The translations under genes were made by a program, and so were the position numbers. From the NCBI GenBank assembly GCA_009377645.1, contig WHTQ01000009.1:27442-91441 (forward strand): a stretch of DNA of 64,000 nt. Reading direction: 5' to 3'. Position 1 is the first letter of the stretch; each line of letters begins with the position of its first letter. The notes beneath the pieces are model-generated. The model was not told the DNA's origin. It saw only the letters and a list, made by a program, of their open reading frames with translations, and ran no database searches. Positions 2,765 through 24,595 of this stretch are shown here, piece after piece. The DNA is from Micromonosporaceae bacterium. GTDB lineage: Bacteria; Actinomycetota; Actinomycetes; Mycobacteriales; Micromonosporaceae.

Positions 2765-3820
2765 ATGGAGGCTTCCAGCAGCGTGCCGAGTCCGTGGACG
2801 GCGCCGGACACCCCGGTGCGGCAGGTCCTCAAGATGGCGATCGGATACCAGGTCTCGGCGGTGGTGTCGGCGGTCGCCCAGCTGACCATCCCGGATCTGC
2901 TCGCCGGTGGCGCCAAGCGCGCCGCCGAGCTGGCCGAGGCGGTCGACGCCCACCCCGACACGGTCCTGCGGCTGATGCGGGTGGCGGTGAGCCTGGGCCT
3001 GTTCGAGCAGGTCGGTCCCGGCACGTTCGCCATCAACCCACTGTCCCAGTGCCTTCGCTCGGACGTCCACTCGGTACGCGGGGTGGCGCTGGCCAGTGGC
3101 CGGATCGCACACGTCCGGCCGGTCGAGCACATGGTGACCGCGATCCGGGAGAACCGGTCGGTGGTCAAGGACACGCTCGGCATGGAGATCTGGGAGTACT
3201 GGGACCAGGACCCGGAGACCAAGGCGGCGATGACCGAGCACCTGGTCGAGGTGAACGCCGCCACCGGACCGGCGATCCAGCAACACTACGACCTGAGCCG
3301 GTTCCGCCGGATCGTCGACATCGGTGGCAACGAGGGGTTCTTCCTGGCCTATCTGCTCCAGGCCGCGCCGCAGGCCACCGGCGTGCTGTTCGACCGCCCG
3401 GAGGTGATGGACGAGGCGCGGGAGACGATGGCGGCCAAGGGCCTCGCCGACCGGGTCGAGTTCGTCGGCGGGGACTTTATGGACCACGTGCCGCCCGGCG
3501 GCGACCTGTATGTCCTGAAGGGAATCCTGCACGACTCCAACAACCAGGTGGCGGCCCGGATCCTGGCGAACTGCGAGGCGGCTGCCGCGCCCGGCAGCAC
3601 GCTGATCCTGGTGGAGGGGATGATGCCGGACCAGCCGCCGTACGACCCGATCGTGCAGCTGGTGGACATCAACATGCTGCTGATGGTGGACGGCCGCGAG
3701 CGCAACCTCGGCGAGTTCTCCGCCCTGCTCGACGCCGCCGGCTACGACGTCATCGGCACGACCGCGCTGCCGGAGACCGGCTACTTCCCGTTCCACGTCA
3801 TCGAGGCGCGGCACCGCTGA
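2765..3820 (+). CDS. Aromatic polyketide O-methyltransferase
   Basis: A 351-residue class I methyltransferase of the TcmN/DnrK (COMT-like) family. Residues about 20-100 form the winged-helix dimerisation domain. The SAM motif VDIGGNEGFFLAYLL is near residue 183, and the LKGILHDSNNQ segment carries the His that acts as general base in catalytic members of this family. It is the first gene of the rightward transcript and lies one base before the FAD monooxygenase start, so the two are probably cotranscribed. It likely methylates a phenol on the polyketide. It is distinct in sequence from the methyltransferase encoded on the opposite strand at 1217-2230. Confidence 0.88.
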   Translation: MEASSSVPSPWTAPDTPVRQVLKMAIGYQVSAVVSAVAQLTIPDLLAGGAKRAAELAEAVDAHPDTVLRLMRVAVSLGLFEQVGPGTFAINPLSQCLRSDVHSVRGVALASGRIAHVRPVEHMVTAIRENRSVVKDTLGMEIWEYWDQDPETKAAMTEHLVEVNAATGPAIQQHYDLSRFRRIVDIGGNEGFFLAYLLQAAPQATGVLFDRPEVMDEARETMAAKGLADRVEFVGGDFMDHVPPGGDLYVLKGILHDSNNQVAARILANCEAAAAPGSTLILVEGMMPDQPPYDPIVQLVDINMLLMVDGRERNLGEFSALLDAAGYDVIGTTALPETGYFPFHVIEARHR

Positions 3821-3821
3821 C

Positions 3822-4964
3822 GTGGCCGAGCAGACGACGGTGGTGATCGGGGCCGGCCCGGCTGGCCTGGCGGTCGCGGCGACCCTGCACGCCCGCCGGA
3901 TCGACCCGATCGTGCTCGAGCAGGGCGACGCGGTCGGCACCAGCTGGCGGCGGCGCTACGATGGCTTGCGGCTGAACACGGTCCGCTGGCTGTCCAACCT
4001 GCCCGGACTGCGGATGCCCCGCCAGGCGGGCCGATGGGTCGGCCGGGACGAGTACGTCGCCTACCTCGAGCGGTACGCGGCGCACCACCGGCTCCGAACC
4101 CGGCTGGGGGTACGAGTGGAGCGGATCGATCCCGGCCCGGACGAGACCCGCCGCTGGCTGGTGTCGACCGACCAGGAACCGATCCACGCCAGCTCCGTGG
4201 TGGTGGCCACCGGCGCTTTCGCCACGCCGGTCATCCCCGGCTGGCCCGGCCGGTCACGGTTTGCGGGCGAGCTCCACCACGCCGACAGCTACCGCAACCC
4301 GGCCCGGTACGCAGGCCGGAGCGTGCTGGTGGTCGGGGGCGGCGCCAGCGGGCTGGAGATCGCGCTGCTGCTCGCCGGCGGCGGCGCCGGACCGGTGCTG
4401 CTGTCGGTGCGCTCCTGCCAGAACCTGTTCGTCCGGCAGTGGCGCGGGATCCCGCTCACCCCACCGCCGGCGGCCCAGCGGCTGCCCACCGCGGTGCTGG
4501 ACGCCGGTGGCGCGATGACCCGCCGGCTGCTCGGCACCGGTTGGCCCAGCCCGCTTCCGGGCGCTCCCGCCGGGCTCGGCACGGCACTGCGCCGCGACGA
4601 ACGGGAGCCGACGGTCGCCGACGGGGTGGTCGAGGCGCTGCGGGACGGCCGGATCCGGCTGGTCGCGGCGGTCGCCGAGCTCCGCGAGCAGGAGGTGGTG
4701 CTCGCCGACGGTGAGGTCGTGCGGCCGGACGCGGTGATCGCCGCCACCGGATACACGGACGGTCTGGACACACTGGTCGGTCATCTGGGCGTCACCGGAC
4801 CGGGCGGGCGGCTGGTCGCCCCGGCCGGACAGCCGATCGCGCACGCACCGGGCCTGGCGTTCGTGGGCTTCACGCCGACCGTCACCGGCCGGCTGCTGCG
4901 GCTGCACAGCCAGGCCCGCACGGCCGCCCGTACCATCACTGCCCCGGGGAAACCCCAGCCCTGA
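3822..4964 (+). CDS. FAD-dependent monooxygenase, FMO/Baeyer-Villiger-like
   Basis: This 380-residue flavoprotein has an N-terminal GAGPAGLAV FAD motif (residues 10-18) and a second Rossmann motif VVGGGASGLEIALLLAGGG near residue 170 for NADPH, the two-site layout of flavin-containing and Baeyer-Villiger monooxygenases. An ATGYTDG segment near the end resembles the FMO ATGY motif. GTG at 3822 is used as start, one base after the methyltransferase stop, which implies coupling. A role as an oxidative tailoring step on the polyketide is inferred from position. Hydroxylation, epoxidation or oxygen insertion cannot be told apart here. Confidence 0.85.
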   Translation: MAEQTTVVIGAGPAGLAVAATLHARRIDPIVLEQGDAVGTSWRRRYDGLRLNTVRWLSNLPGLRMPRQAGRWVGRDEYVAYLERYAAHHRLRTRLGVRVERIDPGPDETRRWLVSTDQEPIHASSVVVATGAFATPVIPGWPGRSRFAGELHHADSYRNPARYAGRSVLVVGGGASGLEIALLLAGGGAGPVLLSVRSCQNLFVRQWRGIPLTPPPAAQRLPTAVLDAGGAMTRRLLGTGWPSPLPGAPAGLGTALRRDEREPTVADGVVEALRDGRIRLVAAVAELREQEVVLADGEVVRPDAVIAATGYTDGLDTLVGHLGVTGPGGRLVAPAGQPIAHAPGLAFVGFTPTVTGRLLRLHSQARTAARTITAPGKPQP

Positions 4965-5022: not shown

Positions 5023-6291
5023 ATGAGCCGTCGGGTGGCGATAACCGGGATCGGGGTGGTAGCTCCTGGAGCCGTTGGCACCAAACAGTTCTGGGAGCTG
5101 CTGATGGCCGGTCGCCCGGTCACCCGCACGATCACGTCGTTCGACCCCGGCCGGTTCCGGTCCCAGCTGGCGGCGGAGTGCGACTTCTACCCCGAGCAGC
5201 ACGGCTTGTCCCCGGAACAGTGCGCGCGGCTGGACCGGGTGACCCAGTTCGCGCTGGTCGCCGCCAGGGAGGCGATGCTCGACAGCCGGATTGCATCCAC
5301 CGGCGAGGCGGCGCACCGGGTGGGGGTGAGCATCGGCACCGCGGTCGGCTGCACCCAACAGCTCGAGCAGCAGTACCGGGCCGTGAGTGACCATCACGAA
5401 CACTGGTGGGTCGACCATTCCCGGGCCAGCCCGTTCTTCTACGACTACTTCGTCCCCAGCTCGATCGCCGCGGAGCTGGCGTGGCTGGTGGGCGCCGAGG
5501 GGCCGTCGACCGTGGTGTCCACCGGCTGCACGTCGGGGATCGACGCGATCGGGTACGGCTGCGAGCTGATCCGGGAGGGCAGTGTGGACGTCGTCGTGGC
5601 CGGCGGCAGCGACGCGCCGATCGCCCCGATCACCGTCGCCTGTTTCGACGCCATCAAGGCGACCTCGTCCCGCAACGATGACCCGGAGACCGCCTGCCGC
5701 CCGTTCGACCGGACCCGAAACGGGTTCGTGCTGGGCGAGGGGGCGGCAGTGCTGGTGCTGGAGCGGCTGGAGCTGGCCCGGGCCCGGGGAGCCCGAATCT
5801 ACGGAGAGGTCGCCGGGTTCGCCTCGCGCAGCAACGGCTACCACATGACCGGCCTGCGGGCGGACGGCCGGGAGATGGCGGCGGCGGTGACCGCGGCGCT
5901 GGATGAGGCCCGGCTGCCGGCCACCGCGGTGGACTACGTGAATGCCCACGGGACGGCCACGAAACAGAACGACCGGCACGAGACGGCCGCGCTCAAGCAC
6001 AGCCTGCGCGAGCACGCGTACCGGGTGCCGGTCAGCTCGATCAAGTCGATGATCGGGCACTCGCTCGGGGCGATCGGGGCGATCGAGGTAGCGACCTGCG
6101 CGCTGAGCCTGGAAAACGGGGCGGTGCCGCCGACCGCGAACCTGCACGAGCCGGAGCCGGAGCTGGACCTCGACTACGTGCCGCTGGTCGCGCGGGAGAT
6201 GCCGGTCGAGGTGGCGCTGACGGTCGGCAGCGGGTTCGGCGGTTTCCAGAGCGCGATGGTGCTGGCCCGCGATCTTGGGCCGCTGGCGTGA
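5023..6291 (+). CDS. Type II polyketide synthase ketosynthase alpha subunit (KS-alpha)
   Basis: A 422-residue beta-ketoacyl synthase. The nucleophile is Cys169 in VVSTGCTSGIDAIGYG, and the catalytic His residues are His309 (NAHGTATKQND) and His346 (SMIGHSLGAIGAIE). The TGCTSGIDA context is that of actinobacterial aromatic KS-alpha rather than fatty acid FabF. It forms a heterodimer with the chain length factor encoded next, condensing malonyl units carried by the ACP. A GAAGGGAGAAA ribosome site precedes the ATG, and a TACGCT box at 4981-4986 could be its own -10. Its stop overlaps the next start (GTGA), giving the 1:1 coupling usual for KS/CLF pairs. Confidence 0.95.
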   Translation: MSRRVAITGIGVVAPGAVGTKQFWELLMAGRPVTRTITSFDPGRFRSQLAAECDFYPEQHGLSPEQCARLDRVTQFALVAAREAMLDSRIASTGEAAHRVGVSIGTAVGCTQQLEQQYRAVSDHHEHWWVDHSRASPFFYDYFVPSSIAAELAWLVGAEGPSTVVSTGCTSGIDAIGYGCELIREGSVDVVVAGGSDAPIAPITVACFDAIKATSSRNDDPETACRPFDRTRNGFVLGEGAAVLVLERLELARARGARIYGEVAGFASRSNGYHMTGLRADGREMAAAVTAALDEARLPATAVDYVNAHGTATKQNDRHETAALKHSLREHAYRVPVSSIKSMIGHSLGAIGAIEVATCALSLENGAVPPTANLHEPEPELDLDYVPLVAREMPVEVALTVGSGFGGFQSAMVLARDLGPLA

Positions 6292-7502
6292 CCACGGCGG
6301 CGGTGACCGGGATCGGGGTGGTGGCGCCCAACGGCCTGGGCGTGGCCGACTACTGGTCGGCGGTGCTGCGCGGGCAGCCCGCGATCGGGCCGATCCCCGA
6401 CTCCACATATCCGGTGCGGTTCGCGGGGCAGGTGGTCGGCTTCGAGCCGGACCGGCACCTGCCCGGCCGGCTGGTGCCGCAGACCGACCGGATGACCCAG
6501 TTCGCGATCGCCGCGGCGGACTGGGCGGTCCAGGACGCCAAACTGGACCTGTCCGGCTTCGACCCGCTGGACGTCGGGGTGGTCACCGCCGGGACCTCCG
6601 GCGGTTTCTCCTTCGGACAGCGGGAGCTGGCGAACCTGTGCCACCGCGGCCCGGAACACGTCAGCGCGTACATGTCGTTCGCCTGGTTCTACGCGGTGAA
6701 CAGCGGTCAGATTTCGATCCGGCACGACCTTCGCGGCCCCACCGGGGTGCTGGTCGCCGACCAGGCGGGCGGCCTGGACGCGCTGGCGCAGGCCCGCCGG
6801 AAGGTGCGCCAGGGAACCCGGCTGGTGCTCACCGGCGGCCTAGACTGTCCACTGTGCCCGTACAGTCTGACCGCGCAGCTGGCCGGCGGGCGGCTCAGCG
6901 ACCGGGACGACCCGGCCACCGCGTACCTCCCCTTCGACGTCCGGGCCGGCGGCCACGTACCCGGCGAGGGCGGGGCGATCCTGGTGCTGGAGGACCGCGC
7001 CCAGGCCGGGGCGCGCGGCGCGGCGGTCTACGGCGAGATCGCCGGGTACGGCGCCACCACCGATCCGCACCCGGACTCCGGCCGGCCACCGAACCTGCGC
7101 CGGGCGATCGAGCTCGCGCTGGCCGACGCCGGCCTGCACCCGGCCGACGTGGCCGTGGTGTTCGCCGACGCGGCGGCGGTGCCGGAGCTGGACCAGGCGG
7201 AGGCCCGGGCGCTGGCGGAGGTGTTCGGCCCGCACGGGGTTCCGGTGACCGCGCCGAAGACGGCGATCGGCCGGATCTACGCGGGCGGTGGCCCGCTGGA
7301 CGTGGTGGCCGCGTTGCTGGCGCTGCGCGAGCGGGTGATCCCGCCGACCGTGAACGTCGCGCGGCGTACGGTCGACCGCGCGGTCGACCTGGTCGAGGCG
7401 CCGAGGCCGTTGACCGGGTCGGCTGCGCTGGTGCTGGCCCGCGGCGTCGGCGGCTTCAACAGCGCCCTGGTCGTGTCGACCCGCGACATCGTTGATCGGT
7501 AG
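6288..7502 (+). CDS. Type II polyketide synthase chain length factor (KS-beta)
   Basis: A 404-residue homologue of KS-alpha in which the active Cys is replaced by Gln159 (VLVADQAGGLDALA), the hallmark of chain length factors. The catalytic His positions are also lost. It pairs with KS-alpha, decarboxylates the malonyl starter and sets polyketide chain length. It starts at GTG 6288 overlapping the KS stop. Just after its stop there is a threefold direct repeat (TAGGAGTCGG, TAGGAGTCGG, TAGGAGGAGG, 7500-7529) that supplies the ACP ribosome site. Chain length cannot be predicted by eye. Confidence 0.93.
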   Translation: MTTAAVTGIGVVAPNGLGVADYWSAVLRGQPAIGPIPDSTYPVRFAGQVVGFEPDRHLPGRLVPQTDRMTQFAIAAADWAVQDAKLDLSGFDPLDVGVVTAGTSGGFSFGQRELANLCHRGPEHVSAYMSFAWFYAVNSGQISIRHDLRGPTGVLVADQAGGLDALAQARRKVRQGTRLVLTGGLDCPLCPYSLTAQLAGGRLSDRDDPATAYLPFDVRAGGHVPGEGGAILVLEDRAQAGARGAAVYGEIAGYGATTDPHPDSGRPPNLRRAIELALADAGLHPADVAVVFADAAAVPELDQAEARALAEVFGPHGVPVTAPKTAIGRIYAGGGPLDVVAALLALRERVIPPTVNVARRTVDRAVDLVEAPRPLTGSAALVLARGVGGFNSALVVSTRDIVDR

Positions 7503-7529
7503 GAGTCGGTAGGAGTCGGTAGGAGGAGG
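7500..7529 (+). repeat. Threefold 10-base direct repeat containing the ACP ribosome binding site
   Basis: TAGGAGTCGG is present twice and then as TAGGAGGAGG, in tandem between the CLF stop and the ACP start. Each copy has an AGGAG core, so three stacked ribosome sites precede the ACP ATG at 7535. This could raise ACP translation over KS/CLF, which would suit ACP's higher stoichiometry. It may equally be replication slippage. Confidence 0.7.
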
Positions 7530-7534
7530 AAGCG

Positions 7535-7801
7535 ATGGACGCGTTCACCCTGGCGGAGCTGATCCGGATCATGCGCGAGTGTGCCGGGGAAGACGACCAG
7601 GTGGACCTGGACGGCGACGTGGCCGAAGTGGACTTCGCCGAGCTGGGCTACGACTCGCTCGCCCTGCTGGAGACCGCCGGCCGGCTGGCCCGCGAGTGGG
7701 GCGTGTCGCTGCCCGAGGAGGAGCTGACCCAGGTGCGCACCCCGGCCGGGTATGTCGCCCTGGTGAACCGGGAGCTGGCCCAGTCCGGGGCCGGCGGCTA
7801 G
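7535..7801 (+). CDS. Acyl carrier protein of the type II polyketide synthase
   Basis: An acidic 88-residue carrier protein. Ser42-region motif LGYDSLALLETAG contains the DSL phosphopantetheine attachment site. Length and composition are typical of aromatic PKS ACPs. It completes the KS-CLF-ACP minimal set and carries the growing poly-beta-ketone. It lies 32 bases after CLF behind three tandem AGGAG repeats, and ends 4 bases before the convergent reductase gene. Confidence 0.93.
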   Translation: MDAFTLAELIRIMRECAGEDDQVDLDGDVAEVDFAELGYDSLALLETAGRLAREWGVSLPEEELTQVRTPAGYVALVNRELAQSGAGG

Positions 7802-15650: not shown

Positions 15651-16495
15651 CCTCGACACCGCCGCAGGTTGCGGCGCCGAACCGACCACCCGGGCCGCGC
15701 TCGCCGCGGAAGCTGGCCCCCCGGCGCTCCCGGCCGGTGCGATGGGGAGCCACGGCCGGCGCGGTGGCCGTGGTGGTGTGGGCAGTGCAGGGCACCGAAC
15801 TGCGACCGCAGGACCTCCTCGAGGGTGGTGCGGGAGCCAGCGCCCTGCTGCGCGGGCTGCTCTCCCCGAACCTGTCGGGCGAGTTCCTCGACGTGGTCTG
15901 GCGGGGCGTCCAGCAGACCGCGCAGATCTCGATCGCCGGGCTCCTGCTCGCCGCCACCGTAGGGATGCCGCTGGCGCTACTGCTGGCGCGCAACGTGGCG
16001 GCCCCAGCGGCGGTCCGGGCGGCGGTACGGGTCAGCACGGCCTTCCTGCGCGGCGTACCTGATCTGCTCTGGGCGCTGCTGTTCGTCGCGATGCTCGGCC
16101 CCGGGCCAGCGGCCGGTACCTTGGCGCTGGCGGTGCACGGCGCCGGGATGCTGGCGAAGCTGGGCGCCGAGCAGCTGGAGGCGGTCAAGCCCGCTCCGGT
16201 CGAGGGGGTTCGCCTGACGGGCGCGAGCCGGACCGCGGTGGCCGTTCTGGCGGTGGTGCCGGAGGCCCGGGCGAACCTCGCGTCCGTGCTGCTCTACCAG
16301 TGGGAGTGCAACGTGCGCACGTCGGCGGTGCTGGGCTTCGTCGGCGCCGGCGGGATCGGGCAGGAGCTCGCGGTGTCGCTGCGGCTGTTCCGGTACGAGG
16401 ACCTGTCCACACTGGTGCTGGCAGTGCTCGTCCTCATCCTGGGCGTTGACCTGCTCTCACGGGTGGTCCGCCGGCGGCTGGGAGCAGCCGCCTAG
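15647..16495 (+). CDS. PhnE-like ABC importer permease
   Basis: A 282-residue inner membrane protein with about six hydrophobic segments. It carries the EAA-type cytoplasmic loop [20 protein letters not shown], which docks onto the ATPase, and the PhnE-typical [28 protein letters not shown] near the C-terminus. It starts at GTG 15647 overlapping the ATPase stop (GTGA), which confirms the operon. It ends convergently with selB, overlapping by 4 bases. Confidence 0.88.
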
Positions 16496-18315
16496 GGCCG
16501 GCACCGCCGGTGGGTGCCGTCCACCCGTTCCGTGTAGCCGTGCCGGTCCAGGTGCTCCAGCAGCGGGATCAGCACCCGGCGGGTGGTGTCCAGCGCCTGC
16601 CGGGCGGCGCTGGCGGTGAACGGCTGCGGCAGCTCGCGCAGGACCTGCGCCGCCTGCGCGTCGGCTCCGGGCAGCAGCACCACCCCGTCGGCGATCCGCA
16701 CCAGCATCCCGGCCCGCTCGGCGGCGGCCAGCGCCCGCCGGTCCAGCCCGGCCGCCGCCAGCCGCTCCTGCTCCGGCGGGTGGAACGGGCGGGCCACCAG
16801 CTCCTGCCGGAGCTGCGCCACCGCGGCCGCCGGGCCGGGCGGCAGCGTACGGTCGGCCCGGCTGTCCTGGATCCCGCCGTCGACCACCGCCAGCGGCGGC
16901 TCCACCAGTGCCTCCACCAGCCGCCGGTCCGGCAGCGCCAGCGCCTGCCGGGCGGCGTCGGTCGGCATCGCCGGCGCCAGCGGATCGGCCGCCTGGTGCG
17001 CGCGCACCACCTCCCGTAGCCGCTCCCGCAACCGCTCCACGTGGTCCGGGTCCACCAGCCAGTCGCCCGCCAGCGGCTCGGCCGTCCCGGCCCCGCCGTT
17101 CCCGTCGCCGGCGAGTCCCATCGGCGCCAGGTCGGCCCGGCGGAGCAGGCCGCGCTGGGCCAGCATCGCGCGCGCGTCCGGGACCTCCGGCAGCCCGGTC
17201 AGGACAGCGCCCCGGCGGGCGGCCGCGCCGCGCCGGCGCAGCGGCGGCGGGCTCACGTCCAGCACCGTCACCCGGCCCAGGATCCGGGCGCCGCGGACCC
17301 GCCCCTCGTCGCACAGCAGCGCCCGGTCGCCGACGTGCAGCGGCAGCGGGGCGGCCAGCGACAGCCGCACCGGGAACCGGGTCCCGTGCGGCGTCCCCAG
17401 CACCCGCAGCCGCGCCGGCACCCGGGCCGACCCGATGTGCAGCATCGCCTCGCCACCGGGCGGCTCGGCCGGCCCGTCGGCCGGTTGCCGCGGCGCGGAC
17501 AGGTCCAGCCACGCGTCCAGCCGGTCGGTGAGCCACCACCGCCCCGGAGTGAGCAGCGCGGTGCCGCGCCGCAGCTCGTCCCGGCCGGTCCGGCGCGCGT
17601 TCACCGCTACCCGGGCCACTCCGGACACCCGGTCGACCGGCTGCCCGAGCGCCTGCAGCCCGCGTACCCGGACCCGTTGCCCGGAGCTGGTCTGCAGCTC
17701 GTCGCCGACCCGGATAGTGCCGGCGCCGAGCGTGCCGGTGACCACGGTGCCGCTGCCCGCGACCGAGAACACCCGGTCGACCCACAGCCGCACCGGCGCC
17801 GCCGGCTCCGGCGGCGGCAGCGCGTGGACCATCCGGTCCAGCGCACCCCACAGCTCGGCCAGCCCGGCCCCGGTCACCGGGCTCACCGCCACCGCCGCGA
17901 TCCCGGCCAGGCTGGTCCCGCGCAGGTAGTCCCGCGCCTCGGCGATCGCCAGCGGTGCGTCGCCGAGATCGGCCCGGGTGACCGCCAGCAGTCCGTGCCG
18001 CACGCCGAGCGCGTCCAGCGCCGCCAGGTGCTCGCCGGACTGCGGCATCCACCCCTCGTCGGCCGCGACCACGAACAGCACCGCCGGCACCGGGCCGACC
18101 CCGGCCAGCATGTTGCCGAGGAACCGTTCGTGGCCGGGCACGTCCACGAACGCCACCGCGCCGCCGGAAGGCAGCTTGCCCCACACGTACCCGAGGTCGA
18201 TGGTCATCCCCCGGTCGCGCTCGGCCGCCCACCGGTCCGGCTCCATCCCGGTCAGCGCCCGCAGCAGCGTCGACTTGCCGTGGTCGACGTGGCCGGCGGT
18301 GGCGATCACGTGCAC
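16492..18315 (-). CDS. selB: Selenocysteine-specific translation elongation factor SelB
   Basis: A 607-residue GTPase. The N-terminus [20 protein letters not shown] carries the P-loop, with a DRGMTIDLGY switch I region, FVDVPGHERFLGNML (G3) and TRADLG where other factors have NKxD. EF-Tu-like beta-barrel domains follow. The C-terminal third has winged-helix segments that in SelB bind the mRNA SECIS hairpin. GTG 18315 is the start, overlapping selA by 10 bases. It would deliver Sec-tRNA to in-frame UGA codons such as the one at 22792 in the same operon. Confidence 0.95.
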   Translation of the reverse strand: MHVIATAGHVDHGKSTLLRALTGMEPDRWAAERDRGMTIDLGYVWGKLPSGGAVAFVDVPGHERFLGNMLAGVGPVPAVLFVVAADEGWMPQSGEHLAALDALGVRHGLLAVTRADLGDAPLAIAEARDYLRGTSLAGIAAVAVSPVTGAGLAELWGALDRMVHALPPPEPAAPVRLWVDRVFSVAGSGTVVTGTLGAGTIRVGDELQTSSGQRVRVRGLQALGQPVDRVSGVARVAVNARRTGRDELRRGTALLTPGRWWLTDRLDAWLDLSAPRQPADGPAEPPGGEAMLHIGSARVPARLRVLGTPHGTRFPVRLSLAAPLPLHVGDRALLCDEGRVRGARILGRVTVLDVSPPPLRRRGAAARRGAVLTGLPEVPDARAMLAQRGLLRRADLAPMGLAGDGNGGAGTAEPLAGDWLVDPDHVERLRERLREVVRAHQAADPLAPAMPTDAARQALALPDRRLVEALVEPPLAVVDGGIQDSRADRTLPPGPAAAVAQLRQELVARPFHPPEQERLAAAGLDRRALAAAERAGMLVRIADGVVLLPGADAQAAQVLRELPQPFTASAARQALDTTRRVLIPLLEHLDRHGYTERVDGTHRRCRP

Positions 18316-19652
18316 GGTCGGTCCTCCGCGGCCGCGCAGACCGCCGCGACCAGCGCGGCGTCCAGCTCGGCCGGGACCGCGCGCAGATCCAGCCACAGCC
18401 GGCCGGCCTCGATCCGGCCGACCACCGCCGGGTCCTGCCGGCGCAGCGGGAGCGCGTACCCGGCCGGCAGGCTGACCGCGTAGCTGGCCAGCGTCACCCC
18501 CGGCGCACCGCCGCCGCCGACCGCCGCCCGGCTCGGCACCGGCACCGCGTCCACTCCCCGCTCCCGGACCCGGGCGGCGACCTCGCCGGCCCGGCGGCGC
18601 AGCCGCTCCGGCGCCGCGTGCAGGGCGGCGGTGACCGGCGGCGGCGGCCCCTGCAGGGTGGCCTCCAGGGCGGCCAGGGTCAGCTTGTCCACCCGCAGCG
18701 CCCGGGCCATCGGGTGCCGCCGCAGCCGGTCCACCAGCCCGGCCTCGCCCAGCAGCAGCCCGGCCTGCGGGCCGCCCAGCAGCTTGTCGCCGCTCGCGGT
18801 CACCAGCGACGCACCCTGCCGCAGCGCCGTGTCGGCATCCGGCTCGTCCGGCAGCAGCGGCTCCCGGGCCAGCAGCCCGGAACCGATGTCGACCACCACC
18901 GGCACTCCCAGGTCGGCCAGCGGGGCGAGGTCGGCACCGGCGGTGAACCCGCTGATCCGGAAGTTGGACGGGTGCACCTTGAGGATGAAACCGCAGTCCG
19001 GACCGACCGCGTCGGCGTAGTCGGCCACTGTGGTCCGGTTGGTCGTGCCCACCTCCCGCAGCCGCGCGCCGGTGCAGGCGAGCAGGTCCGGCAGCCGGAA
19101 GCCGTCGCCGATCTCGACGAACTCACCCCGGCTGAGCAGGATCTCCCGCCCCTGTGCGAGTGCGGTCGCGACCAACAGCAGCGCGGCCGCGTTGTTGTTG
19201 ACCACGTGCACCGCACCGGCCGCCGGGACCGCGGCCTGCAGCGCGGCCAGCGTGCCCCGGCCCCGCCGCGCCCGGGCTCCGGTGGCGAGGTCGAACTCGA
19301 CATCGGTGCTACCGGCGGCGGTCTGCATGGCGCGCACCGCCGCGCCGGACAGCGGCGCCCGGCCGAGGTTGGTGTGCAGCAGCACTCCGGTCGCGTTGAT
19401 GACCGGGCGGAGCGAAGTCGGCCGGGCCGGCAGCGCCGCGACCGCCGCATCCGCCACCTGCTCGGGGGCGATCCGGCCCTCCCGGGCACCCCGCTGGGCC
19501 GCCCGGACCGCTCCGGTGACCGCCGCCGCCCCGTACCGGTCCAGCACGCCGGCCAGCCGCGGGTCGGCCAGCAACCCGTCGGTACGCGGGATCCGGCGCC
19601 GCGGGTCGTCGCCGCCGGCGGACCCACTGCCGTTCGACCCACTGCCGGTCAT
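18306..19652 (-). CDS. selA: L-seryl-tRNA(Sec) selenium transferase SelA
   Basis: A 448-residue PLP enzyme that converts seryl-tRNA(Sec) to selenocysteyl-tRNA(Sec) with selenophosphate. Visible family features are RPVINATGVLLHTNLGRAPL, HVVNNNAAALLLVA, the ILSRGEFVEIGDGFR block, VVVDIGSGLL and the PLP lysine in TASGDKLLGGPQAGLLLG. The length fits bacterial SelA. Its ATG overlaps the stop of the LuxR-type HTH gene (ATGA) and its stop overlaps selB. It needs selenophosphate from SelD and tRNA-Sec, neither of which is encoded in this window. Confidence 0.95.
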   Translation of the reverse strand: MTGSGSNGSGSAGGDDPRRRIPRTDGLLADPRLAGVLDRYGAAAVTGAVRAAQRGAREGRIAPEQVADAAVAALPARPTSLRPVINATGVLLHTNLGRAPLSGAAVRAMQTAAGSTDVEFDLATGARARRGRGTLAALQAAVPAAGAVHVVNNNAAALLLVATALAQGREILLSRGEFVEIGDGFRLPDLLACTGARLREVGTTNRTTVADYADAVGPDCGFILKVHPSNFRISGFTAGADLAPLADLGVPVVVDIGSGLLAREPLLPDEPDADTALRQGASLVTASGDKLLGGPQAGLLLGEAGLVDRLRRHPMARALRVDKLTLAALEATLQGPPPPVTAALHAAPERLRRRAGEVAARVRERGVDAVPVPSRAAVGGGGAPGVTLASYAVSLPAGYALPLRRQDPAVVGRIEAGRLWLDLRAVPAELDAALVAAVCAAAEDRPCT

Positions 19653-19906
19653 GATGCCGCCAGCTGCAGCATGCCCGCCTGCCAGGCCCGGACCACCGCC
19701 TCGGTACGCGACTGGGCGCACAACTTCCCGAACGCGTTGTTGAGGTGGAACTCCACGGTCTTGACGGAGATCCGCAGCAGCTCGGCGATCTCCCGGTTCC
19801 GGCGGCCGGCCGCCACCAGCTGCAGCACCTCCAGCTCCCGGTCGGTGAGCTGCTCGAGCAGCAGCTCCTTGCCCGGCAACGATGTGATCTGTCCGTGTGC
19901 GGTCAT
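19649..19906 (-). CDS. Stand-alone LuxR-type helix-turn-helix protein
   Basis: An 85-residue protein that is almost only a GerE/LuxR DNA-binding domain: LTDRELEVLQLVAAGRRNREIAELL and SVKTVEFHLNNAFGKL are the scaffold and recognition helices. There is no receiver or ligand domain upstream, so activity may depend on dimerisation or abundance, as for other single-domain LuxR proteins. ATG 19906 overlaps the permease stop and the TGA overlaps the selA ATG. It probably regulates this selenium operon. A start a few codons earlier is possible. Confidence 0.85.
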   Translation of the reverse strand: MTAHGQITSLPGKELLLEQLTDRELEVLQLVAAGRRNREIAELLRISVKTVEFHLNNAFGKLCAQSRTEAVVRAWQAGMLQLAAS

Positions 19907-21456
19907 CGTGCTCTCGCCTCCCATGCGCCGGTCCCCGCTGGCTGCCCATGCCTTCCGGGACCGGCGCCGGGGTGCGCCCCCGGCCTCGCCGTCCCGCCCG
20001 CCGATCCCGCCGATCCCGCCGATCCCGCCGTCCTGCTTGCTCCCGCCGATGCTGTCGCCACTGGTCTGATCGCCACCGGCGCCCAGCACGCAGGCAGCGA
20101 TGGGGGCGGCTGCGGGCCGGGCGACGACCGTCCGGTCCGCCAGTGGGCCAGCCCGACCACCCCGGCCAGCACCGCAGCACCGACCAGCAGGTTGCGCCAA
20201 CCCCAGGCGTGGCCGGCCGCCGCGAGCAGCACCACCTGGAACCCGATCAGCAGTGGGGCGAGCCGGGCCAGCCCCGGTCGCAGCGTGATCAGCCGGCGGG
20301 CCGGCCCGCTGCGATGGTTCGACCACGCGGCGGCCAGCGCCAGGCACATGCTCACGAAGTAGCCCACATTGGCCGCCGCGAGCAACGCGATCGGCACCGT
20401 CGACACGTCCCCGCCGGTGATCGCGGTGACCACCCCGACCAGCCCGAGGTTGACGACCAGGTCGAACCGGAGCGCGTTGGCGGGCGACCCGTGCCGGTTG
20501 AGCCGGCCCAGCCGCGCCCAGGCGTCGCCGTTGCGCGCCATCTGGTGCAGCGTCCAGGACGACGCGATCGCGATCAGGTTCAGGCCCAGCAGCAGCGCCA
20601 GCATCAGCAGCACCAGCACCGCGGCGGTCGCGCCACCCACCGCCTGGCGGCTGAGCGCGTCGAAGGCGACCACCGGGTCTTCCGTGACCCGGTCGATCCC
20701 GACCGTCGCCACCAGCAGGAACGGCACCACCGCGAACGCGAGCACGCTCGCCCCGGCCACCGCCACCAGCACCCGCACCGCGTCCCGGACACCGTGCCGG
20801 TACCGGGCGGAGTAGGTCAGCGCCAGCTCGGCCGCGTAGGCGCTCCAGCCCGCGATGAACAGGCCACCGGCCAGCGCCAGCCACCCGCCCGCCGAGGTCC
20901 AGCCGCCCGGCGGAGCGAACGGATGCAGGTTGCCCAGCCGCGGTCCGCCCCCGCGCAGCAGCGCGCCCGCGAACAGCACCGCCACCGCCCCCACCACGCA
21001 ACAGATCAGCAGCAGCTGGAGCCGCCCGCCGGCCCGCAGCCCGAGCCGGTTCACGGCGACACTCGCCACCAGGATCGCACCCGCCAGCAGCACCACTGTC
21101 CACGACGGAGCATCCGGGACCAGCAGCTGCCGCGCGTACCCGGCGATCACCAGGCCGTTGATCGCCGGCGCCGGGCACCAGCCGAACCAGTAGCTCCACT
21201 GGCCGGCCCGGGCCAGGAACCGGCTGCGGCCACCCAGCACCCGGGCGGACAGTGGCGCGACTCCCCCGTTCACCTGCGGGTAGGTGCCCGCCAGCTCCGC
21301 GAACAGCAACGCCATCAGGAACCCGACCGCTGCTGAGACCACCCAGACGGCGACCGAGGCGGTCCCGGTGAGCGCGGCCACCGGCCCCATCGACACCAGC
21401 ACCAGGACCGGTACGCCCGCGGCGACCGCCCCTCCCAGCCGGATGGTGATGCCCAT
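19903..21456 (-). CDS. APC-superfamily amino acid/amine permease
   Basis: A 517-residue membrane transporter with about 12 hydrophobic segments. The first unit has VSMGPVAALTGTASV and FAELAGTYPQVNGGVAPLSA, matching the APC motif around helices 1-2. The substrate is unknown. The last 80 residues are soluble and Pro/Gly/Ser-rich, including AGSAGSAGSAGG encoded by a 9-base tandem repeat. It starts 12 bases after the reductase gene and its stop overlaps the HTH gene. In context it could import an amino acid, amine or selenium/sulfur compound used by the operon. Confidence 0.85.
   Translation of the reverse strand: MGITIRLGGAVAAGVPVLVLVSMGPVAALTGTASVAVWVVSAAVGFLMALLFAELAGTYPQVNGGVAPLSARVLGGRSRFLARAGQWSYWFGWCPAPAINGLVIAGYARQLLVPDAPSWTVVLLAGAILVASVAVNRLGLRAGGRLQLLLICCVVGAVAVLFAGALLRGGGPRLGNLHPFAPPGGWTSAGGWLALAGGLFIAGWSAYAAELALTYSARYRHGVRDAVRVLVAVAGASVLAFAVVPFLLVATVGIDRVTEDPVVAFDALSRQAVGGATAAVLVLLMLALLLGLNLIAIASSWTLHQMARNGDAWARLGRLNRHGSPANALRFDLVVNLGLVGVVTAITGGDVSTVPIALLAAANVGYFVSMCLALAAAWSNHRSGPARRLITLRPGLARLAPLLIGFQVVLLAAAGHAWGWRNLLVGAAVLAGVVGLAHWRTGRSSPGPQPPPSLPACWAPVAIRPVATASAGASRTAGSAGSAGSAGGTARPGAHPGAGPGRHGQPAGTGAWEARAR
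20006..20035 (+). repeat. 9-base tandem repeat in the permease C-terminal coding region
   Basis: A GATCCCGCC-type 9-base unit is repeated in tandem three to four times within the permease gene. On the coding strand it gives the Ala-Gly-Ser repeats of the soluble tail. It is likely a slippage-generated linker. Confidence 0.6.
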
Positions 21457-21468
21457 CGCCGCCGCCGT

Positions 21469-22500
21469 TCAGCGGGCCAGCGAGGCGGGCTGCAGGCCCA
21501 GCGGCCGGTTCCGGATCCCGTACCAGGCGGCGATCTCGGCCAGCTCCAGCGCCCGCGGCACGCTCGCCTGCCCGACCGAGTGCACGGTGATCCCGGCCTT
21601 CGCGAACAGGTAGGTCTCAGTCAGGCACGCCAGCGCGCTGTTCCGGCCCGGCAGCCGCATCTCCAGTGCGCAGCGGTAGCCGGGGATGTCCACCAGGCCG
21701 CCCTGCGCCACCTGCACGCCCCGGGTGGCGAACGCCTGGTACTGGGACTGCGGGATGTTCACCGGATGCGCGAGGTCGAGCACCACCGCCCCCGGCTTGG
21801 GCAGCTCCGGCGGGATGTGCGCGCTCGGGTCCCCGGTCAGCAACAGCACCACGTCCGCGCCGGCGGCGTCGGCCACCGTGCCGGACACGGTCGCCCGGGA
21901 CAGCAGGTCGGCCAGCTCCTTGCGGACCCGGGTGACGCTACGTCCGATCAGGACCAGCCGGTAGCCCAGCTGGTCGAGCAGGCGGGAGGCCGCGACGCCG
22001 ACCGAGCCGGTGCAGCCCACGACGGCGACCACGGCGTCCGGGCCGAGGCCGACGGTCTCGCTCGCCTCCACCACGTTGGCGCGTGCCACGGCGGCGGTCA
22101 GCGCATTGCCGGTGGTGATGGTCACGCCCGCGGGTACCTTCGGGACGAGCGTCAGGCCGCCCCGGGTGGCCGGCGCGGTCAACGCGCCGAGGCCGATCAC
22201 CGAGGTACCGCGGGCGACCGCGATCTGCACCGCCTTGTCGATCTCCGCCCGGCCGCCCGAGAACATGATCTGCTCCGGCATCCGGAACACCACTAAGGTC
22301 TCCCCGCGGACCGGGTCGAACCCGAACGTGGCCTCGCCCCCGAAGGTCGGGGGCAGAGTCAGCATCTTCTCCTGGAACTCGTCCTCGTCGACGCTGTGTT
22401 CGCGGACCAGCCGGCCACCGGGGGAGTTCAGCAGATCGACCCGGTCGCGGGGGTGCACCAGAAAGACGAACGCCGGGGGATCGCTACGAAGGTACGGCAC
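21469..22500 (-). CDS. Long-chain acyl-ACP reductase (AAR)-like dehydrogenase
   Basis: A 343-residue protein resembling cyanobacterial aldehyde-forming acyl-ACP reductase. A FVFLVHPRD start, VIGLGALTAP (101-110), a TTGNALTAA segment, the NADPH-binding VGCTGSVG (161-168) and the candidate thioester-forming Cys292 in SALACLTETYLFA are all present in matching order. The enzyme would reduce a thioester-bound acyl group to an aldehyde; the acyl substrate is unknown. GTG 22500 is chosen because CAGGAG stands 8 bases upstream. It lies between the selenoprotein and permease genes. Distant dehydrogenase relatives remain an alternative. Confidence 0.7.
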   Translation of the reverse strand: MPYLRSDPPAFVFLVHPRDRVDLLNSPGGRLVREHSVDEDEFQEKMLTLPPTFGGEATFGFDPVRGETLVVFRMPEQIMFSGGRAEIDKAVQIAVARGTSVIGLGALTAPATRGGLTLVPKVPAGVTITTGNALTAAVARANVVEASETVGLGPDAVVAVVGCTGSVGVAASRLLDQLGYRLVLIGRSVTRVRKELADLLSRATVSGTVADAAGADVVLLLTGDPSAHIPPELPKPGAVVLDLAHPVNIPQSQYQAFATRGVQVAQGGLVDIPGYRCALEMRLPGRNSALACLTETYLFAKAGITVHSVGQASVPRALELAEIAAWYGIRNRPLGLQPASLAR

Positions 22501-22611: not shown

Positions 22612-23274
22612 TCAGTGGCTGCCGAGCTCCGGGATCAGCACCATGGCACCTTCGAAGGAGAGGTTGACCGAACCTCCGCCGAGATGCCGGGGCCAGTTGA
22701 TCAGGAACGTGGTGTCGTAGGCGACGTGGACCGGACGGCCTTCCTTGAGGCCGAGCAACGTGTCCTCCAAACTGGAGGTGATGCGGCCGTCTCAACCACC
22801 GGATGCGCCGGACCACAAGGATCCGGGTAGGAAGTCCATGCATCCGAGGGCGCGCCAGCCGGTCAGCTCCTCGTTCACCGAGCACTCGTCGGTGGCGGTG
22901 GCGCGGACCGGCCCGAGCAGGCTCAGGTCGTGCTTGCCGGACATCACCAGCTGGTGGATGCCGGGGAAGACCGCGTGCACGCCGTACTTGACCCGCAGGT
23001 AGCGGCGCTCGAAGTCGATCAGCCCGACGTTGCCGGCGGCACCCGACTCCGGGTCCTGGGTCAGCGAGACCGGTCCGGACTCGATCGACTCGGTCTGGCT
23101 CACCGGGAACGGCACGCTCCCGGTCGACACGCCGTACAGCCCGGCGACCCGGAACACCACCCGGTCCGTGGGACTCTCCCGCACCCGGCGGGCGGCTATG
23201 TCCTCAGGGGTCACGGCCGGGACTTCGGCGCCCGGTTCGGTCGTGCCCGTGGTTGGTTCGGCGATCGCCGTCAT
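22612..23274 (-). CDS. Putative selenoprotein with in-frame UGA (Sec161), family not recognised
   Basis: The frame opens at ATG 23274 behind CAGGAGGTGG and runs 160 codons to TGA at 22794-22792, then continues in frame for 59 more codons to a second TGA. Codons after the first TGA keep the strong G/C third-position bias of the genome and encode an ordered stretch (VHVAYDTTFLINWPRHLGG, SVNLSFEGAMVLIPEL). A perfect SECIS-like hairpin starts 13 bases after the UGA. I therefore read a 220-residue protein with Sec161 in SGASGG-U-DGRI. Cys131 and Cys145 could partner Sec161. The body looks beta-rich with no signal peptide or membrane segment. I do not recognise the family. Neighbours are an ArsM-like methyltransferase upstream and an AAR-like reductase downstream, with selA-selB later in the operon. 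If UGA is a real stop, the product is a 160-residue protein. Confidence 0.8.
22764..22791 (-). promoter_or_regulatory. Bacterial SECIS-like element
   Basis: On the coding strand the UGA is followed by 13 bases, then CCUCC-AGUUU-GGAGG (22778 down to 22764): a perfect 5-bp stem closing a 5-base loop that contains GU, the apical feature SelB recognises in bacterial SECIS elements. Spacing from UGA to loop is 18 bases, within the known range. The spacer GACGGCCGCAUC resembles the post-UGA bases of E. coli fdhF. The stem forces the rare TTG codon in this GC-rich gene. Confidence 0.75.
22792..22794 (-). other. Recoded UGA (selenocysteine) codon
   Basis: This TGA interrupts a frame that stays coding on both sides. 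It follows codons GGT GGT and precedes GAC GGC CGC. Sec insertion is inferred from the hairpin just downstream and selA/selB in the same operon. Confidence 0.78.
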
Positions 23275-23335: not shown

Positions 23336-24595
23336 TCAGTCGGACAGCGCCGCCGCCGGCACCCGCACCGCCGGGGGGTCGTCGACCAGCTCCGGCAGCG
23401 GCTTGCGCGCCCGGACGCTGGTGTTGGCGAACCCCAGCTCGAGTGCCTTACTGAGACCGGCCCGGGCCAGGACCGGCGTCAGCCCGGCGAGGTCGGCGTC
23501 CACGGCGGTGAACTCCCGATCCCGCGTGATCTCGATGTCGACGAACCCGGCGGCCGCCAGCTCCGCCCGGTACTCGTCCTCGGTGAGCGCACCGCCGACG
23601 CACGCCGCCCACGCCGACAGGTCGCCCTTGAGGTGCTCCGGCACCGGCCGGCGGGTGACGATGTCGGAGATCGACAACCGGCCCTCCGGTCGCAGCACCC
23701 GGTGCGCCTCGCGCAGCGCGCGTGCCTTGTCCGGCACCAGGTTGACCACGCAGTTGCTGATGATCACATCGACCGACCCGCGCGGGAGCGGCACCGACTC
23801 CATGTCGCCCTTCAGGAACGCCACGTTCGTGACCCCGGCGGCCGTGGCGTTGCGCTGCGCCAGCGCGAGCATGTCGTCCGACATGTCCAGGCCGAACACG
23901 TGCCCGTCCGGCCCCACCCGCTGGGAGGCCACCAGGGCGTCCATGCCACCGCCGGACCCCAGGTCGAGCACCACCTCACCGGGCTGCAGCGCGGCCCGGT
24001 CGAACGGGTTGCCGCAGCCGAGCGAGGCCTGGATGGCGTTGGCCGGGACGGCGGCCAGGTCCTGGGCCTGGTAGGACGGCACCGCGCTGACCTCGGCCGG
24101 CAGCAGCCCACCGGATGGAACGCCGGAGGGGTCGGTGCCGGACCCCTCCGGCACGCCGCGGGCCCGCTCGCCGTAGTACTCCCGGACCGCACCCCGGATC
24201 CGGTCGTCCGGACCGGACGCGGACAGCCGGATTCCGACATCGGTGGCGACCGGCAGACCGCCGACTGCCCCCGGAAGCCCACCGGCTCCCGGCTGGTCCG
24301 CGTGGCAGCCACAGCCGCCACCGGCCGTCGCGAACGCCGGTGCGGATCCGCGCCGCCAGAGCCGTCGCGGGTCGAGCCGGGCGAGCATCCGGGCAGAGGC
24401 GCTGCGGGACCAGCAGCTCACCGCGTACCGGAAGTCACGCCAGCGACCGGGGCGGGCGTCCCCCGTGGTCACCGGCGTCTGGTAGCCCTGCTCCCGCCAC
24501 TCGTCGGCCATCGTGTGGCAGCCGGGACAGTTGACCTGGCACGCATCGGTGCAGTCGGGTGCGCACACCATGCGCCAAAACCATTTCATCGCCAT
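23336..24595 (-). CDS. Arsenite methyltransferase-like protein with Cys-rich N-terminal extension
   Basis: A 419-residue protein. Residues about 135-400 match ArsM: SLGCGNP (191-197), SAM motif DLGSGGGMDA (211-220), SNCVVNL with Cys282 and WAACVGGAL with Cys332, the Cys pair that binds As(III) in characterised ArsM. Residues 1-30 form an unusual CxxxCxxxCxxxCxxC cluster (Cys11, 15, 19, 23, 26), and GGGCGCH adds Cys95 and Cys97. These suggest metal or Fe-S binding, or a trapping domain. It is the first gene of the selenium operon behind a good promoter. The substrate may be arsenic, selenium or another thiophilic element; that is inference. Confidence 0.75.
   Translation of the reverse strand: MAMKWFWRMVCAPDCTDACQVNCPGCHTMADEWREQGYQTPVTTGDARPGRWRDFRYAVSCWSRSASARMLARLDPRRLWRRGSAPAFATAGGGCGCHADQPGAGGLPGAVGGLPVATDVGIRLSASGPDDRIRGAVREYYGERARGVPEGSGTDPSGVPSGGLLPAEVSAVPSYQAQDLAAVPANAIQASLGCGNPFDRAALQPGEVVLDLGSGGGMDALVASQRVGPDGHVFGLDMSDDMLALAQRNATAAGVTNVAFLKGDMESVPLPRGSVDVIISNCVVNLVPDKARALREAHRVLRPEGRLSISDIVTRRPVPEHLKGDLSAWAACVGGALTEDEYRAELAAAGFVDIEITRDREFTAVDADLAGLTPVLARAGLSKALELGFANTSVRARKPLPELVDDPPAVRVPAAALSD

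Follow-up and report, generated by a model that had tools for sequence, protein, structure and literature searches.

The window analysed here is a stretch of 64,000 nucleotides from a Micromonosporaceae bacterium (assembly GCA_009377645.1, contig WHTQ01000009.1, positions 27,442 to 91,441). Its minus strand carries a reading frame interrupted by a single TGA that is predicted to encode selenocysteine (Sec); the gene is named SelX here. The frame starts with ATG at 23274, with an AGGAGG ribosome site 5′ of it, runs for 160 codons to the TGA at 22794-22792 and continues for 59 more codons to a second TGA. In the window translation, the read-through product has 220 residues with U161, in the context GGUDG and with no UxxC or CxxU partner. 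The features of the gene are:

22612..23274, minus strand: SelX, predicted selenoprotein gene, 220 codons, U161, terminal TGA at 22614-22612
22792..22794, minus strand: in-frame TGA, putative codon for Sec161, TGA in 7/7 genomes
22764..22778, minus strand: candidate bacterial Sec insertion sequence (SECIS) hairpin CCUCC-AGUUU-GGAGG, 13 nt past the UGA

A preliminary description of this DNA had given the 160-codon frame, the TGA with its 59 further codons and the hairpin 13 bases past it, and all of these positions proved exact (spacer, 22791-22779; hairpin, 22778-22764, composed of CCTCC at 22778-22774, AGTTT at 22773-22769 and GGAGG at 22768-22764). Codon bias was likewise described as unchanged past the TGA, which agrees with a GC content at third codon positions of 0.91 upstream and 0.86 downstream. 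The UGA is predicted to be a Sec codon because the UGA, the hairpin and the downstream protein are conserved in seven genomes belonging to two phyla. With a probability of roughly 0.95, it would be decoded as Sec and SelX would define a new protein family.

The seven genomes carrying SelX comprised six actinobacterial genomes and one of Eremiobacterota. A scan of genome contigs, which detects only loci sharing exact peptide stretches, revealed three loci besides that of the window: L004 in Virgisporangium ochraceum (81% identity in the best segment, query residues 19-219), L005 in a metagenome-assembled genome (MAG) of Nocardiopsaceae (74%, residues 16-220) and L006 in a MAG of Eremiobacterota (52%, residues 21-219). 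Whole-genome searches added three carriers, G779, G855 and G958, which were counted as actinobacterial by group, belonging to the order of the L005 genome or the family of the window's genome. Most of the searches by taxonomic group covered samples of larger groups, and in several no more than 8-10 candidates were scored per genome; genomes returned by several searches (that of L004, G062 and G779) were counted once each. SelX was found in 1 of 61 relatives and in 1 of 394 genomes in the class. Within the phylum to which the Eremiobacterota genome belongs it occurred in 1 of 149 genomes, and within the order of the L005 genome in 3 of 297. The family of G779 gave 2 carriers among 298 genomes and that of the window 4 among 300, the last figure including one chance match and the L004 genome again. 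Because of these tallies, SelX is regarded as rare but widespread. No other member was detected among 60 relatives searched, and no relative was detected among the viral contigs or plasmids searched. A match in G1150 (L036, 22.9 bits) was dropped as chance, with a TAG inside and three forward frames read.

Codon 161 was TGA in all seven genomes. DGRI comes next in each, then a C-terminus that is likewise conserved, and the final stop was TAG in L037 and TGA in the other six. The preliminary description had named a lack of conserved protein sequence or of Ka/Ks constraint past the UGA as grounds for rejecting Sec. What was observed is a C-terminus conserved in 7/7 genomes, with a ratio of nonsynonymous to synonymous differences (pN/pS, Nei-Gojobori) of 0.11-0.54 over 21 pairs, indicating purifying selection. 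When window and L004 were compared by local alignment (BLOSUM62), the protein past the UGA scored 288. Translations continued in frame past the stops of three control genes gave scores of 20 (acyl-acyl carrier protein reductase (AAR)-like), 17 (ArsM-like) and 18 (SelB). A fourth control, the sequence past the second SelX TGA, scored 95; in both genomes the following gene begins in the same frame, and this is taken to explain the score.

The limits quoted from PMC13188914 for bacterial SECIS elements are a loop of 3-9 nt, a stem of 4-16 bp, a G in the first two loop positions, a distance of 16-37 nt from the UGA and a minimum free energy of ≤ -7.5, and the SelX hairpin lies within them in 7/7 genomes. 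Folded in isolation as 20-nt pieces, all seven hairpins had 6-7 bp, a loop of GUU, GUC or GUCU, and energies of -8.4 to -8.7 kcal/mol, with the loop starting 18-19 nt past the UGA. The same apical hairpin appeared in the 57-nt folds of all five members folded, and z scores against shuffled sequences were -2.69 for L004 and -2.57 for L006. Arms of different sequence (UUGUCUCCG/UGGAGACAG) occur in L006 and pair nonetheless, with the 3′ arm displaced by one base. Among codon pairs encoding the same residue, 15/87 differed within the hairpin (codons +5 to +9), versus 329/652 downstream and 181/410 upstream; synonymous change is thus suppressed in the hairpin, and a constraint at the RNA level therefore appears to lie atop the protein constraint.

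The formate dehydrogenase gene (FdhA) of the window's genome offers an independent comparison. Its codons +7/+8 after the in-frame TGA are AGT TTG within CAGTTTGG, and this octamer recurs in SelX, equally far from the UGA; in a 13-gene sample from the window, AGT accounts for 2.1% of the Ser codons and TTG for 2.8% of the Leu codons. The Eremiobacterota genome has GGTCT at that loop position in both SelX and FdhA. In the L004 and L005 genomes the loops of the two genes are unlike, with SelX loops of AGTTT and AGTCT and FdhA loops of GGTCT.

Structure models of two members (54% identical) had pLDDT scores of 82.2 and 82.4 and showed their elements in the same order. SelX is modelled as an up-and-down β-barrel with Sec161 within a strand, and the barrel is closed only by strands at or past the UGA. 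Sec161 would face Cys145, which lies in the adjacent strand. The protein is probably cytosolic since no hydrophobic N-terminus was seen.

A protein database search gave 233 SelX matches, and the 120 listed were 145-165 residues long. Every one of these stops at the GG that precedes the UGA position, as placed through the distance from LPGS in 119 of them, the remaining one being without LPGS but ending in GG. Cys131 and Cys145 are present in 120/120, those with a readable source name are called 'hypothetical protein', and the closest relative among the matches listed is 97% identical and bears the name of a MAG of Natronosporangium sp., which makes this genus the probable source of the window. 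It had been foreseen that standard annotation would yield a 160-residue hypothetical protein, and the listed relatives follow this pattern. Should the UGA be an ordinary stop, the 160-residue form would be functional and the remainder a decayed or chance frame. The ends of the 120 listed relatives fit this explanation, as does the failure to find any database protein with the C-terminal part of SelX. Set against it are the conservation of the C-terminus across two phyla with pN/pS below 1, the lack of such conservation past three control stops, and the loss from the shortened form of the last strands of the modelled barrel; we consider an ordinary stop next to negligible in likelihood. Homologues all ending at residue 160 had been named as evidence against Sec, and Sec was not refuted in this way: the listed database proteins do end there, but the DNA of 7/7 genomes continues as conserved protein sequence.

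Neither the C-terminal part of the window protein nor that of the Eremiobacterota protein found a match among 5.8 billion proteins, in searches whose candidates must share five-residue words. Homologues with Cys at position 161, or with UGA and a conserved hairpin, had been proposed as support; the former were not found and the latter were present in 7/7 genomes. Since cysteine homologues were not found, support for SelX comes from the UGA and the conserved hairpin. The family was also described as unrecognised, in accordance with our searches: Pfam gave no match at E 10 for the window, L004, L005 and L006 proteins, NCBIfam gave none for the window protein at E 0.1 or for those of L004, L006 and L037 at E 0.01, and a four-member profile gave none among PDB sequences at E 10.

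Two genes for Sec machinery lie on the SelX strand, in the same gene run and three genes on, with the reductase-like, permease and LuxR-type genes between:

18306..20180, minus strand: selA (open reading frame limits), TIGR00474 399 bits (cut-off 267.9), match from residue 195
16492..18396, minus strand: selB (open reading frame limits), TIGR00475 240.6 bits, under the cut-off of 242.25, with a C-terminal SelB-wing_3

The window itself gave no tRNA by ARAGORN and no Rfam match at gathering scores. The tRNA-Sec gene of the window's genome (77.9 bits) is on the same contig as the window (C212), 4.5 kb to its left. A second selB, over the cut-off, is found in this genome on contig C37, which also bears FdhA and selD. 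In 4/4 genomes tested, tRNA-Sec and selD scored over the cut-off and FdhA had an in-frame TGA; among control genomes, 2/14 passed the selD model. At least one sel gene (selA, selB, selD or tRNA-Sec) occurred on the SelX contig in 6/7 genomes, and none was found within the 15-kb SelX stretch of G779. In the SelB tree, the window, L004 and L005 proteins formed one group (92/93), and the second copies of the window's genome and of G061 formed another (96/94). A single origin of all cluster-linked SelB proteins was considered and rejected, as the L037 copy grouped with L044 (100/100) and the label was unclustered on the tree (213/500 shuffles as low).

A further explanation is that the UGA is read through in another way, as Trp or Cys or by near-cognate misreading, giving short and long products without selenium. 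It draws on the fact that what the DNA displays directly is read-through as such, selenium at residue 161 being predicted from the frame, the UGA, the hairpin, the C-terminus and the Sec machinery in the same genome. The SECIS-type hairpin, however, shares loop letters and offset with that of FdhA of the same genome, selA and selB are three genes downstream, and tRNA-Sec is on the same contig, and we judge such misreading to be highly improbable.

Several observations weigh against the interpretation of SelX as a Sec-containing β-barrel enzyme and are to be balanced with the above. No cysteine form of SelX was found in the C-terminal searches or among the listed relatives, and the usual test of a column occupied by Sec or Cys is thus not possible. 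Three of the five 57-nt folds were not clearly better than shuffled sequences (window, z -1.42; L005, -0.52; L037, -0.64), and in L037 an alternative stem of equal length ties with the hairpin. Because six of the seven hairpins are nearly invariant, covariation comes from L006 alone. The window SelB falls slightly short of the curated cut-off, the tRNA-Sec of Eremiobacterota is marginal (47.7 bits, cut-off 47), and 5/14 control genomes also pass the tRNA-Sec model. Cys145, the proposed partner of Sec161, is Thr in L028 and L029. A Foldseek search gave no match at E 0.001, and the barrel matches say nothing on function.

The other genes of interest in the window are:

21469..22500, minus strand: AAR/PigE-N-like oxidoreductase, next to or near SelX in 7/7 genomes
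23336..24595, minus strand: ArsM-like methyltransferase, NF008823 288.6 bits (cut-off 263), with a Cys-rich N-terminal module VCxPxCxxxCxxNCPGC
19903..21456, minus strand: amino acid permease family protein (family match)
19649..19900 (approximate, from translation), minus strand: LuxR-type helix-turn-helix protein, whose L004 counterpart matches GerE
5023..7801, plus strand: two ketosynthases and an acyl carrier protein of a type II polyketide synthase-like cluster (ketoacyl-synt twice, PP-binding)
2765..4964, plus strand: O-methyltransferase and flavin-dependent oxidoreductase, both matched by genes of the Virgisporangium cluster

Compared with solved structures by phmmer, the oxidoreductase matched 4ppm (PigE) at E 4.7e-11 and 6jzq (AAR) at E 1.1e-9, with a Cys aligned at the 'FACFAE' site of AAR. 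The Cys of this stretch is the residue we take to be catalytic in AAR. Its scores were far below the NCBIfam equivalog cut-offs (39.6 of 449.7 bits for TIGR04058; 75.5 of 850), and because of this shortfall against TIGR04058 it is called AAR-like at most. Fusion of SelX and this reductase into one protein through a second read-through was considered and rejected: the window, L004 and L006 have an in-frame spacer but that of L005 is out of frame, L028 and L029 carry the two genes in the opposite order, and the SelX of L037 stops at TAG.

The ArsM-like methyltransferase occurs near SelX in 3/7 genomes and its Cys-rich module in 5/7. The module, W[FL]WRxVCxPxCxxxCxx[NY]CPGC, is fused to the ArsM-like protein in three genomes and free-standing beside SelX in two (window 23336-24595; L028:10120-10494; L029:8955-9341). 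The free-standing module of L029 gave no NCBIfam match. A second selenoprotein in the L028 and L029 modules was considered and discarded, as the frame simply ends.

A PF04199 cyclase is also present in the window. One gene to the left of the window encodes a B12 radical SAM methyltransferase of the KedN5 family, which scored 965 bits (cut-off 700), and others there specify a Polyketide_cyc2 protein and an acyl-CoA dehydrogenase. The gene content around SelX thus includes the ketosynthase pair, acyl carrier protein and cyclase by which a type II polyketide cluster is recognised. Window and Virgisporangium have in common the ketosynthases, methyltransferase, flavin enzyme, radical SAM protein and Polyketide_cyc2-type cyclase, together with the ArsM-like protein, SelX, the reductase, the permease and selB; the Virgisporangium selA was found by Pfam. 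In both genomes a type II polyketide synthase-like cluster is accompanied by SelX, selA and selB, with tRNA-Sec on the same contig.

From these data a role can be proposed. The UGA at codon 161 would be decoded as Sec through the hairpin directly behind it, with SelA and SelB provided by the cluster itself. The product would be a β-barrel selenoenzyme that acts in the cytosol as part of a specialised-metabolite pathway, with the selenolate of Sec161 as its reactive group. This selenolate and the acyl-thioester-reductase-like neighbour may act on the same acyl or polyketide substrate. SelX would most likely serve as a reductant or nucleophile, in the reaction that either precedes or follows formation of the aldehyde. 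Taken jointly, a selenoprotein of a new family with a likely enzymatic role is a reading in which we place considerable confidence. The likeliest role of SelX, at about even odds, is that of a cluster enzyme whose selenolate acts on a substrate also used by the reductase-like neighbour. Slightly more tentative is the wider picture of a transferable polyketide-type cluster, with its own selA, selB and tRNA-Sec, that would make one Sec-obligate β-barrel enzyme, never settling on a cysteine version, to work in tandem with an acyl-thioester reductase towards an aldehyde-derived product.

The window ketosynthases have counterparts with 45% and 37% identity in L004 and with only 33% in L028 and L029, and no ketosynthase match was obtained in the SelX-locus stretches of L005, L006 and L037. 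Because matches elsewhere are weak or absent, the shared cluster is demonstrated in two genomes only. The main rival to a role in the cluster is that SelX is a redox-defence, carrier or binding selenoprotein, with the polyketide genes as incidental neighbours. It is disfavoured by the retention of the AAR-like neighbour in 7/7 genomes, and by the ketosynthases, O-methyltransferase, flavin enzyme, KedN5-type radical SAM protein and ArsM-like genes held in common with the Virgisporangium locus; we regard it as rather unlikely, and an enzyme of the cluster is preferred.

Known bacterial selenoproteins number 119 families and subfamilies in Table 1 of PMC13188914. SelX resembles those treated there in having a UGA with a bacterial SECIS element within limits and in occurring in genomes with Sec machinery. 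It differs from the tabulated families in that no Pfam or NCBIfam model matched, the comparison with those that have just a cd, PTHR or no identifier being by name and motif only. It also differs from known bacterial selenoproteins in having no UxxC or CxxU partner and no cysteine form found. The barrel model contrasts with the thioredoxin-like fold of most characterised selenoproteins in the same source; the known 8-stranded barrels set beside it, of the AOC, YceI and OmpA kinds, were OmpW/OmpA, the YceI-like BcnB and the polyketide cyclases AbyU/PloI4. The motif GUxG of hypothetical protein DG (NF049953) also fits the GGUDG of SelX. However, SelX gave no NF049953 match in the NCBIfam scan at E 0.1, and DG is given cysteine homologues in PMC12013277, whereas none were found for SelX. 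No earlier description was found in the table of PMC13188914 or in full-text searches of open-licence papers, a body of text that leaves most subscription papers and all preprints outside.

The proposed link between Sec and specialised metabolism has a precedent because selenobacteriocin (TIGR04081) is known, a ribosomally synthesised and post-translationally modified peptide natural product with two Sec residues according to the table and a reference title in PMC13188914. TIGR04081 was not matched by SelX in the NCBIfam scan, and SelX is instead a folded protein of 220 residues. If SelX is indeed an enzyme of a polyketide pathway, selenium catalysis would enter natural-product chemistry. As stated in PMC12013277, nearly all known selenoproteins have many cysteine homologues, discovery methods depend on them, and deep-Sep may by its own account miss selenoproteins without them. 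The SelX family suggests that such selenoproteins exist in numbers (233 database matches, the listed 120 all cut at the UGA), and a search for more might target groups of proteins that share a single end point and whose DNA stays conserved beyond it.

A few minor observations concern the surroundings of SelX. To the left of the window on C212, an 80-residue frame (L031:6131-6373) resembles the C-terminal end of the L004 SelD region (75% over 52 aa). It is likely a selD remnant in the cluster, because the selD search shows no full selD on C212 and a full selD on C37. Duplicate Sec machinery is unusual. Two tRNA-Sec genes over the cut-off were present in each of two genomes, G061 (C24 and C82) and G062 (C302 and C741), with one copy on the SelX contig (C82, C302) and the other elsewhere. 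A trio of genes is conserved in three genomes (L031:575-4117 and counterparts in L037 and L006). One encodes an acyl-CoA dehydrogenase and another an SBP-like protein; the product of the third, about 435 aa long, is unclassified and matches TusA below threshold. The best model for the SBP-like protein was the Rv1680 family and the next a selenate-binding one, both below cut-off. In Eremiobacterota (L006:4380-7808), the SelX gene lies next to selD, a family 2A encapsulin shell gene and a gene whose rhodanese product was matched in two stretches, a neighbourhood that may mark sulfur or selenium storage.
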